Of a stretch of 64,000 bases of DNA, positions 2,063-10,085 are shown one piece after another. Each line of letters opens with the position of its first letter. The stretch's first letter is position 1. A program made the position numbers and the translations under genes. Under the pieces are notes generated by a model. The model saw only the letters and a list, made by a program, of their open reading frames with translations, was not told where the DNA came from and did not search any database. The stretch is from contig JAPYRX010000003.1 of NCBI GenBank assembly GCA_029936815.1, forward strand, positions 57,172 through 121,171, read 5' to 3'. The DNA comes from Dehalococcoidia bacterium. Its GTDB lineage: Bacteria > Chloroflexota > Dehalococcoidia > Lucifugimonadales > GCA-002694895.

Positions 2063-3817
2063 ATGACGATTGATACAAATAAAAATGAATACTTTGAAAA
2101 ATCAAAGATGTCTGTAGATATTAATGTTATTAATGAAATGAGAGATGGTGTCAAATTATATTCTGATATTTACTATCCAGCTTTAGAGGGTAAATATCCG
2201 GTTTTGCTATCTAGAATACCGTATGGCAAACATAAACCCAGATATCATTCTCTTTATATGGATCCTTTAAGAGCAACTCAACGAGGTTATATAGTCATTA
2301 TTCAAGATGTTAGAGGAAAACATAGATCTGAAGGTGAATTTAATCCTTTTCATAATGAATATGATGATGGATACGATACATTAGAATGGATTTCTCAACA
2401 AGATTGGTGTGATGGTAATATTGGTATGTTTGGAATATCTTATCATGGAGCTACTCAATGGTTAGCTGCAGCCACGCAACATCCATCGCTTAAAACAATA
2501 ATTCCAGGAGTTACATCAGATTCCTATTATGATAGTTGGACATATCTAGGCGGAGTTTTGCAATATTATTGGTTAACTCATTGGACAGTTGGAACTTTAG
2601 TCCTAGATGATATACAGAGAAGTAAATTTAATATTACTGAGAGAAATAAACTTTCTAAATGGAGTTTGGATAATAATGATGCAAATAAAATTAATAATCC
2701 GATTAAAAATTTTCCACCTTTTGATAAATTAGGAGGGTTTTATAATGATTGGATAAAAAATGACACATACAATGATTTTTGGAAAAAAATTAGTCCAAAA
2801 GAGTATTTTGACAAGATAAATATTCCTGTCTTAAATATGGGTGGTTGGTATGATGGTTTTTTAAGAGGGACTGTTAGATGTTTTGAAGGAATGGAAGAAA
2901 GTTCTGATAACTATATTTCGCAAAATCAAGGTTTAATTTTAGGCCCATGGACACATGAACCAATGCCGAAGCCACTTGCTGGATCTAAGCATTTTGGAAA
3001 CAAAGCTTCCGGAGAAGCTATAGATATTCAAGGAATGATGTTAGATTGGTATGATTGTTGGTTGAAAACTAATTTTAATAATTCTTCTAATCATAGAGTT
3101 AAGTATTATACTATGCTAGAAAATGAATGGAAAAATTCTTATGATTGGCCACCTGAAGATACTGAAAAAATTACCTACTTTCTACACAGTGATGGAAAAG
3201 CTGGTATAAAATCAAATGGTAAATTAAGTTTCATCAAACCTGATGATGAACTACCTGATGAATATGTTTATGATCCTTCCAATCCTGTAATCACTATGGG
3301 TGGAGCACATTTAGGAGGAAATCCAGGTAATTTTGATACAGGAGTACAAAATCAAGTTGATGTTGAAAGTAGAGATGATGTACTTGTGTATACTACTGCT
3401 ACTATAAATCAAAATTTAGAAATTTCAGGAAATGTTTTGATTAACTTGTTCGCAGAGTCATCAGCTGAAGTCACTGATTGGACTGCAAGGCTGTGCTATG
3501 TTGATGAAAATGATAAATCTTGGAATATTTGTGATGGAATAATACGTTCTAGCTTTGCTAAGGATCTCGAGCGTAAAAATTACATCGATCCAAATACTAT
3601 TTATAAATATATTATTGATCTAGGCCCAATAAGTATCAAATTAAAATCTAGTATGAAATTAAGAGTTCAAATTTCTTCAAGTAATTTCCCTGCTTATGAT
3701 GCAAGCACAAACCTCATAGCATCTAAATTATCTGATGGACAATATATTCTTGCAAATCAAATAATACACCATGATATTAATTATCCTTCAAGTTTGCAAT
3801 TTGATGGATTAATTTAA
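2063..3817 (+). CDS. CocE/NonD family hydrolase (X-Pro dipeptidyl-peptidase S15-like)
   Basis: RDGVKLYSDIYYP, GMFGISYHGATQWLAA, C-terminal jelly-roll region. Confidence 0.9.
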   Translation: MTIDTNKNEYFEKSKMSVDINVINEMRDGVKLYSDIYYPALEGKYPVLLSRIPYGKHKPRYHSLYMDPLRATQRGYIVIIQDVRGKHRSEGEFNPFHNEYDDGYDTLEWISQQDWCDGNIGMFGISYHGATQWLAAATQHPSLKTIIPGVTSDSYYDSWTYLGGVLQYYWLTHWTVGTLVLDDIQRSKFNITERNKLSKWSLDNNDANKINNPIKNFPPFDKLGGFYNDWIKNDTYNDFWKKISPKEYFDKINIPVLNMGGWYDGFLRGTVRCFEGMEESSDNYISQNQGLILGPWTHEPMPKPLAGSKHFGNKASGEAIDIQGMMLDWYDCWLKTNFNNSSNHRVKYYTMLENEWKNSYDWPPEDTEKITYFLHSDGKAGIKSNGKLSFIKPDDELPDEYVYDPSNPVITMGGAHLGGNPGNFDTGVQNQVDVESRDDVLVYTTATINQNLEISGNVLINLFAESSAEVTDWTARLCYVDENDKSWNICDGIIRSSFAKDLERKNYIDPNTIYKYIIDLGPISIKLKSSMKLRVQISSSNFPAYDASTNLIASKLSDGQYILANQIIHHDINYPSSLQFDGLI

Positions 3818-4231
3818 TATTTCTAAATTCATTTTTTCTTTCAAATTGTTTAGTGGACATATTTCATGTTTTTTAAAAAATTTATATCGATTTTTTGCTG
3901 TTAAATTATAAAATATATTAATTATAAAATTTGGAATTATATAAATTATTTTAAGAATTGCTTTAAGTCCAGTAAATGTGCTTACAATTTTTTTAATAGC
4001 TTTACTATTTGTATAAAAATAATTTTCATCTATAACAATTATTGTATCGGGCCTATTTTGTATATTAATGCTTTTTAATATTTCTATTCCTTTATTTGAT
4101 TCCATAGGGCAAATTGTAATTCTAGAATTATTTAAAATCTTGTTAAGTATTCTTATTCCAGTATTACAATTTGTACATAATCCATCAAATAATATTATTA
4201 TTTTGCCTTTATTTATATTAAATTTATTCAT
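3809..4231 (-). CDS. DCC-family thiol-disulfide oxidoreductase (DUF393)
   Basis: ILFDGLCTNCNTGIRILNK DxxCxxC motif; convergent overlap with the upstream hydrolase. Confidence 0.8.
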   Translation of the reverse strand: MNKFNINKGKIIILFDGLCTNCNTGIRILNKILNNSRITICPMESNKGIEILKSINIQNRPDTIIVIDENYFYTNSKAIKKIVSTFTGLKAILKIIYIIPNFIINIFYNLTAKNRYKFFKKHEICPLNNLKEKMNLEILN

Positions 4232-4267
4232 TATAATATCTATTTATATTTATTGTATGATTTGACT

Positions 4268-4289
4268 TATTAGAACAAATGTTCTAATA
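4268..4289. promoter_or_regulatory. Putative SOS (LexA) box GAAC-AAAT-GTTC upstream of ftsZ-like gene
   Basis: TATTAGAAC AAAT GTTCTAATA: perfect 9-bp arms, 4-nt centre; core 4273..4284, 38 bp upstream of the 4327 start. Confidence 0.7.
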
Positions 4290-4326
4290 TTGTATTTTCA
4301 TTAAAAAGCATAAAAGGAACAACTAA

Positions 4327-5409
4327 ATGTCAGATATCAAAGTAACAATTATTGGAGTAGGTGGGGCGGGTTGCAATACAATTAATAGGCTTAATCGTAA
4401 AAACTTTACAAAATATAATTTACTGGCTGTTAATACTGATACTCAAATGCTAGAAACCATTAATACTTCTGGAGTCTTTGCAATTGGGCCTATTACAACT
4501 AAGGGTTTTGGTAGCGGTGGAAATCCAAGAATTGGAAGAGCAGCAGCTAAAGAAAGTACAGATCAATTATCAAAAATATTAGAAGGTCAAGATCTGGTAA
4601 TACTTACAACAGGTCTAGGGGGAGGAACTGGCACGGGAGCCACTCCAGTAATAGCGTCCCTAGCAAGAAAATTAGGAGCTTTAGTAATAGTTGTAGCTAC
4701 ACAACCTTTTACATTTGAAGGTAAATTAAGAAAAGAATATTCTGATAAAGCTGTGAAATCAATATTAAGAGCTAGCGATAGTTTCATAGAAATAAATAAT
4801 GATGGATTACTTTCTATAAATTCAGATAACAAATCTTTAGATGAATCTTTTAAATATGCAGATAATGCATTGATTGATATAGTAGAAGAAATTACAAGTG
4901 TGATTGCTGATTCGGGATTGATTAACATTGATTTTGCAGATGTTAAAAATTTATTATCAAAATCAGGTAAAACTTTTATATCAAAATCTAAAATTGAAAA
5001 AAATCAAAAAATTGACGAGATTTATTCTGATTTGAAAAAAAACTTACTTATAAATTATGATTTTAAATCTTCGAGAAGAGTTTTATTATCAATAAAATCT
5101 AATCCTGATTTCTCACTTAACGAATTGAATACAATAGCGACAAAGATCTCTTCTTTTTTGTATGATCCTCAAAATATATTAATTGGAGTTAATAACACTT
5201 TCCACAAAAAAAACATTGTTGAAGCCACATTGATTGCTTCAGATTTGAAATTTTCTTTTTCTGACCAAATCGACCAAAATGATGACATGAAAACTTTTTC
5301 ATTTATTGACAATAATCAACCATCATATCATTCACAAAATGAATCTGCTAAAATGAGTCCGTTATTAAGTTTTAAAAAATTAATTCGCCTTCCTATTGGT
5401 TTCAATTAA
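4327..5409 (+). CDS. ftsZ: FtsZ-like tubulin-family GTPase with divergent C-terminal half
   Basis: VIGVGGAGCNTINRL, AVNTD, GLGGGTGTGATPVIA tubulin signature, PFTFEG, T7-like loop INIDFAD. Confidence 0.9.
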   Translation: MSDIKVTIIGVGGAGCNTINRLNRKNFTKYNLLAVNTDTQMLETINTSGVFAIGPITTKGFGSGGNPRIGRAAAKESTDQLSKILEGQDLVILTTGLGGGTGTGATPVIASLARKLGALVIVVATQPFTFEGKLRKEYSDKAVKSILRASDSFIEINNDGLLSINSDNKSLDESFKYADNALIDIVEEITSVIADSGLINIDFADVKNLLSKSGKTFISKSKIEKNQKIDEIYSDLKKNLLINYDFKSSRRVLLSIKSNPDFSLNELNTIATKISSFLYDPQNILIGVNNTFHKKNIVEATLIASDLKFSFSDQIDQNDDMKTFSFIDNNQPSYHSQNESAKMSPLLSFKKLIRLPIGFN

Positions 5410-5449: not shown

Positions 5450-5785
5450 GTGAATATGAGTTATTTTAAAGATGTAAATTCAAGGAATTTTTTTGAATTA
5501 GCTCCAGGTGCTAATGCTCAAACTTTTTGGGGTGACAAAATGCTAATGTCAATTGTTACAATTGACCCTAATTCTATAGTTCCTAATCATACTCATCCTC
5601 ATGAACAAGCTGGAATATTACTTGACGGCTCCCTAAACATGACTATTGGCAATGAATCTAAATTACTTTTACCTGGCGATATATATATTATTCCAGGAGA
5701 AATTGAACATTACGCTAAATCATCCGATATAGGAGCTAAAGTCTTAGATATTTTCTCACCTGTCAGAGAGGAATTTAAATATTAA
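5450..5785 (+). CDS. Small cupin-domain protein
   Basis: VPNHTHPHEQAGILLDG...LLPGDIYIIPGEIEHYA. Confidence 0.85.
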   Translation: MNMSYFKDVNSRNFFELAPGANAQTFWGDKMLMSIVTIDPNSIVPNHTHPHEQAGILLDGSLNMTIGNESKLLLPGDIYIIPGEIEHYAKSSDIGAKVLDIFSPVREEFKY

Positions 5786-6616
5786 ATGACTATTAATGAC
5801 AATTCTTACATCACCATTGGCGATGTAAGCAATCCACCTTTACTTCTTATTCATGGATTGGCTAGTAATAAATATACTTGGAAAGTTATTCTACACTTCC
5901 TAAAAAAACATTATTATATTGTTTCTATAGATTTACCTGGACACGGCCAAAATTCTGAATCTTTCACCGATTTTTCATATATTAATATTGTTGATTATAT
6001 AGCAAATCTACAAATACATTTGAGCATAAATTTTGATTATATCGCAGGTCATTCTTACGGGGCGTCAATCGCAACATCAGTTTCTTTTGATTCCAGATTC
6101 AATATAAAAAAAATTGCTTTACTAGATGGAGGTATGATTCCTATGAAATTAATTCCTGAAATGAACCAAGATAACTATAAAACTCGATTATCACCTCCAG
6201 ATTTCACAAACAGAAAATTTGAAAGTATTTCAGATTTTATTGATAAAAATTTATCTTTAAAATCTAATACTTATAGTGAAGATATTAAATATGCAATACT
6301 TAGTAATTTTGACCACACTCAAAAACCTAAATTAGTTCCTTTTTTAAATCGTACTAATCATTTGAATATTGTTGATTACCTTTGGGACTATAATCCTGAA
6401 ATAATATTATCTCAAATTGATATCCCTGTTTTAGGATTAATGGCATGCAAATTTGATAGCATTGTCGATAGTAATTCATATAGATGTGAATACACTGATT
6501 ATTTACAATCTATCAATTCTCGTATCAGTATTAATTGGATTTTAAATACTCCTCATGATTTACAATTATATGCTCCTAAATTGGTATCAAGGAAGCTTGT
6601 TGATCATTTTTCTTAA
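5786..6616 (+). CDS. Alpha/beta hydrolase
   Basis: LLLIHGLASNKYTW, GHSYGAS nucleophile elbow, TPHDLQL. Confidence 0.85.
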   Translation: MTINDNSYITIGDVSNPPLLLIHGLASNKYTWKVILHFLKKHYYIVSIDLPGHGQNSESFTDFSYINIVDYIANLQIHLSINFDYIAGHSYGASIATSVSFDSRFNIKKIALLDGGMIPMKLIPEMNQDNYKTRLSPPDFTNRKFESISDFIDKNLSLKSNTYSEDIKYAILSNFDHTQKPKLVPFLNRTNHLNIVDYLWDYNPEIILSQIDIPVLGLMACKFDSIVDSNSYRCEYTDYLQSINSRISINWILNTPHDLQLYAPKLVSRKLVDHFS

Positions 6617-8377: not shown

Positions 8378-8409
8378 GAATATTATAGAACATATGTTCT
8401 ATAATATTC
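8378..8409. promoter_or_regulatory. SOS (LexA) box in a 32-bp perfect palindrome between plsY and umuDC
   Basis: GAATATTATAGAACATATGTTCTATAATATTC; core GAACATATGTTC at 8388..8399. Confidence 0.85.
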
Positions 8410-8436: not shown

Positions 8437-8835
8437 ATGTACACTCCAATTCCATTTTTAAAATTGATAGCTTCTGCTGGGTTCCCATCTCCTGCAGAAG
8501 ATTTTTTGGAACCAAATTTAGATTTAAACAAATTTTTGATAAAAAACCCTCCTGCAACTTTTTGTATAAAAGTTAAAGGAGATTCAATGATTGGGACTAG
8601 AATTTATTCTGGTGACGTTTTAATTGTAGACAGATCTCTTTCTCCAGAGAATAACAATATTGTTCTTGCTACTTTAAATGGTAGTTTTATTGTTAAAAAA
8701 ATTATTATTACCCATAGCAAAATATATTTAATGTCTGATGATGGTGAACGATCTGAAAAAATTTATATAAACGATCAAACAGAATTTAATATATGGGGAG
8801 TAGTAACCTCTGTGATTAATAAATTGATAGAATGA
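8437..8835 (+). CDS. umuD: UmuD-like S24 family peptidase
   Basis: SAGFPSPAEDF cleavage region, KGDSMIGTRIYSGDVLIVDRS, NGSFIVKKI. Confidence 0.9.
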   Translation: MYTPIPFLKLIASAGFPSPAEDFLEPNLDLNKFLIKNPPATFCIKVKGDSMIGTRIYSGDVLIVDRSLSPENNNIVLATLNGSFIVKKIIITHSKIYLMSDDGERSEKIYINDQTEFNIWGVVTSVINKLIE

Positions 8836-10085
8836 TTGCTTTAGTTGATTGTAATAATTTTTATGCTTCATGTGAAAGGATTTTTCGCCCTGATTTAATT
8901 GCTAAACCTGTGATAGTTTTATCTAATAATGACGGATGCGTAATTGCGAGAAGTAACGAAGTTAAAGATATGGGAGTTTCTATGGGAACTCCATTGTTTA
9001 AAATCAATGATTTGGTAAGAAATTACGAAATAAATATATTTTCATCTAATTTTGCATTATATGGAGATATATCAAATAGAATAATGCGAATTTTAAAAAA
9101 TGATATTGCTAATGTTGAAATTTATTCGATTGATGAAGCCTTTCTTGATTTTTCTGATTTTAATAATCATGAAACAATAGCGCTTGATTTAGTGAATAAA
9201 ATTAATAAATGGACTGGGATTCCTACTTCAATTGGTATTGCTGAAACTAAGACATTAACTAAAATTGCTAATCTGTTTGCTAAACAATCTAAATCAAAAA
9301 ATATTTTTCACATTGACAATTCTAAAATTAAATTTTTCACACAAAAAACTAAAATCTCCGATGTATGGGGGATAGGTAATAAATATACAAAATTTTTAAA
9401 TAAAAACAAAATTTATACTGCATATGATTTAACTCAAAAAAATGATAAATGGATTTTGAATAATATATCTATAAATGGTTTGAAAACCATGTATGAACTT
9501 AAAGGCATTAAATGTTTTGAATTAGAATTACTTTCATCACCTAAAAAAAATATAAGAACATCTAGGACTTTTAGTAAAGAAACTAGTGACTATTATAAAT
9601 TACAAAGAATTATTAGTTCTTTTGCTTCTAAATCATCAGAAAAATTAAGAAGACAAAATAGTAAGACTTCATCTATTTCTGTATTTATTAAAACAAATCG
9701 ATTTAAAACTCGTAATAATAATTTCAAATTGATTAGTAAATCAAATTTTGAATATCCAACTGATGATAATTCTATTATCGTTAAAGAAGCTTTGAAAATT
9801 TTAAATAAAATTTTTATTCCAGGTAAACTCTATAAACAAGCTGGAGTTATTATTGGTGATTTTCAACTTTCAGACAAAGTCCAACCTGGATTGTTTGAAA
9901 ATATGTGCCAAAAAAACGTGAGAAGTAAGCTTATGCAAGCTTTTGATACTATCAATAATGTTTTTGGTTCTGAATCAATCAAATTAGGATCAGAAGAATT
10001 TCATAATAAATGGCGAACTAATAGAAACAAATTGTCTCCTTCTTATACTACAAAATGGAATGATATTTTAGATGTAAATATATAA
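8832..10085 (+). CDS. umuC: Y-family DNA polymerase UmuC
   Basis: MIALVDCNNFYASCERIF, VLSNNDGCVIARS, YSIDEAFLDF; overlaps umuD by 4 bp. Confidence 0.93.
   Translation: MIALVDCNNFYASCERIFRPDLIAKPVIVLSNNDGCVIARSNEVKDMGVSMGTPLFKINDLVRNYEINIFSSNFALYGDISNRIMRILKNDIANVEIYSIDEAFLDFSDFNNHETIALDLVNKINKWTGIPTSIGIAETKTLTKIANLFAKQSKSKNIFHIDNSKIKFFTQKTKISDVWGIGNKYTKFLNKNKIYTAYDLTQKNDKWILNNISINGLKTMYELKGIKCFELELLSSPKKNIRTSRTFSKETSDYYKLQRIISSFASKSSEKLRRQNSKTSSISVFIKTNRFKTRNNNFKLISKSNFEYPTDDNSIIVKEALKILNKIFIPGKLYKQAGVIIGDFQLSDKVQPGLFENMCQKNVRSKLMQAFDTINNVFGSESIKLGSEEFHNKWRTNRNKLSPSYTTKWNDILDVNI

Follow-up and report, generated by a model that had tools for sequence, protein, structure and literature searches.

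The known examples of SOS control of cell division rely on small inhibitors, directed against FtsZ or against the synthesis of the septal wall. Why, then, would the gene of an FtsZ homologue itself carry a LexA-type box in its promoter? The question is raised by one locus of the window analysed here, a stretch of 64,000 nucleotides from a 1.46-Mb assembly (G000, 89.7% complete) of a member of the Dehalococcoidia (Chloroflexota), whose closest named relatives are marine 'Chloroflexi bacterium' MAGs. In our view, held with moderate confidence, the locus is best read as part of an SOS checkpoint on division whose effector is an FtsZ paralogue induced by damage; LexA binding, induction, interference with the polymer and division delay are all inferred.

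The gene in question, hereafter ftsZ2, occupies positions 4327..5409 of the + strand and codes for a divergent FtsZ paralogue of 360 residues. Its product matches the Pfam families Tubulin (PF00091, 131 bits) and FtsZ_C (PF12327, 28.1 bits), which bears out the FtsZ-like GTPase gene announced at this locus by the first-pass annotation, and it scores below the NCBI equivalog cut-off for division FtsZ (TIGR00065, 278.1 vs 295.2 bits). It is one of two ftsZ genes in the genome. The second and canonical copy that the same annotation proposed to look for, ftsZ1, is present on another contig directly 3' of ftsA (C11:14560); its product ends in VDLPPFLRK and shares 32% identity with FtsZ2. The two proteins have the GTPase fold, the G-box, the T7 loop and the FtsZ_C domain in common. 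Unlike FtsZ1, FtsZ2 has no divisome-binding C-terminal peptide, is not encoded beside ftsA, has a LexA box in its promoter and evolves faster (between the same pairs of species, 82% identity vs 94% for FtsZ1). The location outside a dcw cluster that had been described also holds, as ftsZ2 adjoins neither ftsA nor other dcw genes. Its neighbours are a divergent DCC1-like gene (3809-4231, - strand), a cupin gene (5456..5785, + strand; Pfam Cupin_2) that lies 46 bp 3' of ftsZ2 and is possibly co-transcribed with it, and an alpha/beta hydrolase gene (5786..6616, + strand) that abuts the cupin gene.

Upstream of ftsZ2 stands the putative LexA/SOS box, a 22-bp palindrome with perfect arms of 9+9 bp, TATTAGAAC-AAAT-GTTCTAATA (4268..4289, core 4273-4284). 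Its sequence is exactly the one first described, as is its place upstream of the start codon; the distance to the ATG at 4327 is 37 bp, not 38 bp. The box forms the spacer of a sigma70-type promoter on the + strand (4262..4290), TTGACT (4262-4267)-17 bp-TAATAT (4285-4290), and a LexA box between -35 and -10 is the classical geometry of a LexA-repressed promoter. Exact GAAC-N4-GTTC cores number two in the window vs 0.35 expected, a count that 4 of 100 shuffles reach. The other one, at 8388-8399, precedes umuDC as had been claimed, at the centre of a 30-bp perfect palindrome, AATATTATAGAACATATGTTCTATAATATT (8379..8408). This operator is longer than a LexA dimer needs. The genes behind it, umuD (8437-8835, + strand; Peptidase_S24, model NF007621) and umuC (8832-10085, + strand; IMS/IMS_C/DUF4113, UmuC model), are the reference SOS genes of the window.

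Genome-wide, the 8-bp core is a weak signal and is not enriched in G000 (15 sites vs 10 for a reversed-pattern control). A single lexA of G000 (C23:56085-56708) passes the NCBI cut-off, and the promoter of this gene carries TAGAACATATGTGCTA, 11 bp before the ATG and one base off the ideal palindrome. This site is nearly identical to the ftsZ2 box, which speaks against the possibility, raised by the first-pass annotation, that the LexA of this genome recognises another motif. Across the order, lexA promoters contain sites of the type GAACATnnGT[ATG]C. The umuDC site comprises the 16-mer TAGAACATATGTTCTA, from which the ftsZ2 box of G000 departs at one central base and the lexA site at one or two. 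If at most one mismatch to TAGAACATATGTTCTA is allowed, G000 has just four sites: those of umuDC, ftsZ2 and lexA, and one in a promoter-like setting that precedes a conserved hairpin. A genome-wide search found none with exactly two mismatches. A fifth, weaker LexA-type site is intergenic and precedes a gene for a NurA-family nuclease.

As for these last two sites, the box before the NurA-family gene is kept in the genus and lies about 25-30 bp upstream of the gene at L006 (G000:C11:56291), L099, L100, L109 and L116; at L006 a second gene directly follows the nuclease gene. The hairpin-associated site (G000:C9:110035-110050, L275; also L273, L281 and L282) is found within a promoter, TTGACT-AGAACATATGTTCTATGATAAAG, that leads to the hairpin TTAGCAGGAAT...ATTCCTGCTAA and to no ORF of at least 60 aa. 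In four species, every position of the 15-bp stem is paired (100%) and 3 of the pairs covary; the hairpin had no Rfam match above cut-off. It is a candidate for an SOS-controlled small RNA.

Does the box belong to ftsZ2? Its position in a divergent intergenic region, 36 bp from the start of the DCC1-like gene, leaves room for the idea that it controls that gene, or that it is a chance palindrome or a terminator stem. TTGAC[AT] and the box are found at the same position before each ftsZ2 copy of the genus (five genomes), while the flanking intergenic DNA has diverged and the proteins are 69-82% identical for the more distant pairs; in the other four genomes the site is the perfect 16-mer. The gene upstream is DCC1-like, a membrane protein gene or gamma-glutamyltransferase-like depending on the species, and the cupin and alpha/beta hydrolase genes stay 3' of ftsZ2 across the genus. 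Since the upstream neighbour changes while the box and ftsZ2 remain together, the box belongs to ftsZ2. Moreover, the -35 and -10 elements lie on the + strand, and a position weight matrix (PWM) trained solely on lexA promoters gives the ftsZ2 box 19.7 bits (shuffle p=0.005). We are left with next to no belief in these alternatives: the variable neighbour rules out a box of the upstream gene, and genus-wide conservation, recurrence across the order and the PWM contrast described below rule out a chance palindrome. One genome of the genus, G002, has two ftsZ2 copies (C7:56736 and C20:70711) that are 97% identical, each with the box; they may be two strains binned together.

To place FtsZ2 among its relatives, we used 94 FtsZ of usable length from 59 genomes of the order plus the genus. 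These genomes are MAGs, 65-99% complete and gapped, and the order samples were drawn evenly and do not include all genomes. In the protein tree, all FtsZ with SOS-type promoters form one side of a branch with 100/100 support, together with L074, which carries the variant site TTGACTAGCACGCTCGTTCGTTCTA, and the 73 other FtsZ are opposite. The window genus remains long-branched; its best order-level matches outside the genus are members of the SOS clade with mixed GC content. A long-branch artefact was considered and rejected, as the clade persisted (99/100) in a repeat tree from which most of the long, AT-rich rows were dropped and to which 26 FtsZ from elsewhere in the class were added. The orthologous clade extends to roughly a dozen other families of the order; among the order genomes sampled, those with ftsZ2 are a minority. 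In family f84 (G208, G237), the box lies directly before ftsZ2, as in the window. More usually, the operator sits in front of a small KOW/SH3-like gene in an operon with ftsZ2, and in many families the promoter, TTGACA-GAACnnnnGTTCTGTTCTA or TTGACA-aGAACnnnnGTTCTGTTCTAnnnTGTTCTA, is followed by this gene of about 88 codons and then by ftsZ2. The downstream synteny is partly common to the families, with alpha/beta hydrolase genes, NUDIX/NAD-kinase-like genes, or both, identified by eye. 'GLAS...W' hydrolases related to that of the window are convergent to ftsZ2 in several other families. Thus, the lack of conservation upstream of orthologues that would have spoken against the first-pass annotation is not observed: the box precedes every genus copy and is met again upstream of the orthologous clade in other families.

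The symmetric LexA PWM, learned only from 27 lexA promoters, was also scanned over the upstream region of each ftsZ, to a distance of at most 700 bp. The median best score was 15.4 bits for the SOS clade (n=21) vs 3.4 bits for the other ftsZ (n=76; Mann-Whitney p=1.3e-11), and a shuffle p<=0.01 was reached by 16/21 vs 2/76 upstream regions (Fisher p=3.5e-12). Related sequences are not independent, so these p-values overstate the certainty; the contrast is large nevertheless. A LexA-like site, TGGTACATTTGTTCCA (16.0 bits), also precedes one ftsA-linked ftsZ (L079, in G073), at 254 bp from the FtsZ core; it may be due to chance or represent a second case.

The central AT of lexA boxes is missing from the operator in GC-rich families, where additional TGTTCTA half-sites are found around the -10 element. 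LexA control is hence best supported in the genus of the window and somewhat less secure elsewhere, and a further or different regulator is possible in those families. Could the operator be read by a dedicated regulator other than LexA altogether? Its extended form, GWACnnnnGTWCTGTTC, hardly occurs outside the operon promoter, which accounts for 9 of the 11 matches in 15 genomes, and its central bases are unlike those of lexA boxes. However, the genus site is the umuDC 16-mer and lies within one or two bases of the lexA site, the lexA promoters of some relatives likewise show doubled sites around -10, and the operon contains no regulator gene. We find such a regulator improbable. The LexA control of ftsZ2, for which there are no binding or expression data, is on the other hand very likely. 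The earlier proposal that an SOS box governs an FtsZ homologue is therefore supported by the match to the lexA site and by the conservation of the box, with LexA binding and induction by damage still inferred.

What might the protein do? The FtsZ G-box GGGTGTG (residues 98-104; 4618..4638, + strand) fits the pattern GGGTG[TS]G of all 21 SOS-FtsZ, and the T7 loop NIDFADV (residues 200-206; 4924..4944, + strand) fits N[IV]DF[AS]D, also present in 21/21 clade members. In FtsZ the T7 loop is the catalytic loop given to the next subunit, and its residues N200, D202 and D205 are invariant in an alignment of 26 SOS-FtsZ. The gene is under purifying selection, with dN/dS values of 0.05-0.17 (dS near saturation). 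The AF2 model of FtsZ2 shows a confident FtsZ core followed by a disordered region (residues 310-360, pLDDT <50). This predicted disordered tail (5254..5406, + strand; C-terminus KKLIRLPIGFN) has no canonical C-terminal peptide [DE]xPxFL[RK], and the corresponding motif is found in 0/21 SOS-FtsZ vs 56/73 other FtsZ. The C-terminal peptide of FtsZ docks FtsA, SepF or ZipA and so ties FtsZ to the divisome. SOS-FtsZ have conserved tails of their own, NGH...LL or, in the window genus, LPIGFN. Whether FtsZ2 is a damage-specific tubulin or a decoy, as the first-pass annotation suggested, its role is inferred; judging from sequence, we favour the idea that the combination of a lost C-terminal peptide and an intact GTPase makes FtsZ2 a polymer-competent interferer or replacement.

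Between these two, inhibition of division by FtsZ2, which is inferred from FtsZ homology and the lost peptide without any phenotype data, is slightly more probable than its absence. FtsZ2 could instead build a damage-specific replacement ring, its own polymer giving damaged cells a special way of dividing, budding or shedding membrane. The catalytic and T7 residues are all invariant under purifying selection and the conserved tail could bind another partner, as such a ring would have it; we nevertheless hold it to be unlikely, as the known SOS logic is to stop division and the operon was not found to contain a second divisome gene. A third proposal is that FtsZ2 filaments serve the DNA or the chromosome, in segregation or in the positioning of repair, like PhuZ and TubZ, and leave the Z-ring untouched. 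PhuZ and TubZ form filaments of the same FtsZ/tubulin superfamily, ftsZ2 appears co-regulated with umuDC and nurA, and there is a weak PHROG match to PhuZ (25 bits). By sequence, though, FtsZ2 is far closer to FtsZ (278 bits; E=5e-62 for FtsZ in the PDB vs E=7e-4 for TubZ), no TubR-like partner was seen near ftsZ2, and the gene is chromosomal, with conserved synteny and no phage context. We give little credence to this proposal. A phage or mobile origin of ftsZ2 was rejected as well: tblastn against phage records returned only FtsZ-like matches of 30-36% identity, mostly in unannotated or draft records resembling host DNA, and the synteny of the locus is partly shared between families.

To return to the checkpoint, we infer that it would operate as follows. 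LexA bound to the box between -35 and -10 would block the ftsZ2 promoter. Upon DNA damage, RecA on single-stranded DNA would trigger the self-cleavage of LexA, and FtsZ2 would be produced together with UmuDC, LexA, NurA and probably the product of the gene next to nurA. FtsZ2 is expected to bind GTP and to be able to assemble, given its intact G-box and T7 loop, but it is without the C-terminal peptide that anchors FtsZ1 to FtsA and other partners. As a protein presumed competent for assembly yet devoid of this peptide, it would most likely co-assemble or compete with FtsZ1 and thereby uncouple or cap the Z-ring, and division would be held until the damage is repaired.

The order to which the window belongs offers a context for such a mechanism. 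FtsW/RodA (PF01098) was not detected in 23/24 genomes of the order (G000 and 22/23 relatives), while the control search found it in 10/14 reference genomes. The sole match, in G003, lies at a contig end and may be a contamination. SAR202 bacteria have been described as devoid of peptidoglycan, ftsW and ftsI (PMC11994032), and the order is probably the SAR202 group. FtsW is the demonstrated target of YneA and the predicted or proposed one of other SOS inhibitors (PMC13396833). With FtsW/RodA undetected, FtsW-directed inhibitors would have no target in this order, which must act elsewhere, and FtsZ is the obvious layer. These presumably peptidoglycan-less marine bacteria probably tune division after DNA damage by means of a modified FtsZ rather than the known small inhibitors. 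In its most specific form, the proposal is that in marine Chloroflexota without a septal peptidoglycan polymerase the checkpoint effector is a LexA-repressed, tail-less FtsZ paralogue, usually accompanied by a LexA-controlled KOW/SH3-like mini-protein, and that the induced paralogue poisons or replaces the Z-ring; in this full form, we consider the chances to be even.

Known systems share some of these features. Like SulA of Escherichia coli, ftsZ2 would be repressed by LexA and its product is proposed to act at the FtsZ polymer after damage; SulA is not an FtsZ homologue, whereas the candidate effector here is a presumably polymer-competent FtsZ paralogue. YneA, SosA and SidA also provide a LexA-controlled division block, as proposed for FtsZ2, and the GAAC-N4-GTTC operator is as in Bacillus, but they are small membrane proteins for which FtsW is the shown (YneA) or proposed target (PMC13396833). 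Second FtsZ copies outside the dcw cluster have been reported for a few bacteria (PMC9871819). Like these and archaeal FtsZ2, ftsZ2 is a duplicated ftsZ with a separate role; it differs in forming a clade apart from the other FtsZ of the class, and LexA control is not reported for the others in the sources cited here. In the open-access literature, with subscription papers and preprints outside our scope, we found no description of a LexA- or SOS-controlled FtsZ paralogue. SOS division checkpoints are known; one run by an FtsZ paralogue would be new.

If true, a LexA-controlled FtsZ paralogue represents a different solution from small inhibitors, in which damage alters the composition of the division ring itself. 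A solution at the level of FtsZ is sensible in cells without the usual wall targets, since FtsW, the presumed target of several SOS inhibitors, is undetected in nearly all genomes searched here. Extra copies of FtsZ are common in Dehalococcoidia, and a role would thereby be offered for one class of them at least. The order contains a further well-supported clade of FtsZ paralogues (L129, L130, L139, L145, L162, L171 and others) with no SOS boxes and mostly without an adjacent ftsA. A naturally tail-less FtsZ and a new family of small proteins become available for study, and the hypothesis can be tested in cultured SAR202 strains, which exist (PMC10444878), if they have the operon.

As for the small KOW/SH3-like protein encoded in the same operon, it is likely the partner of FtsZ2 in many related families, a partnership that is inferred. 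It has no Pfam and no PHROG match, and no phage match was found. AF2 predicts a small beta-barrel (pLDDT 77, rising to about 90 in residues 31-80). The best matches open to interpretation are with KOW/SH3-like domains (SPT5); these are weak, with Foldseek E-values of 0.02-0.05, none below 0.001, and an hmmsearch E-value of 0.07. The gene is present in 57/247 order genomes and absent from the genus of the window. The pair is not obligatory, as each member occurs without the other: ftsZ2 lacks the KOW-like gene in two families, and the latter stands without an adjacent ftsZ2 in several families, behind the same conserved SOS-type promoter (L249-L260, L243, L246). This promoter makes the KOW-like gene an SOS-type gene in its own right, and in some lineages the response may be centred on it. 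The gene that follows it in families f4 and f89 is of the radical-SAM type and weakly resembles spore photoproduct lyase (L261-L263 and L265; G088, G245, G259 and G213). At L261 and L262, two GAACnnnnGTTC boxes stand in tandem before the KOW-like gene.
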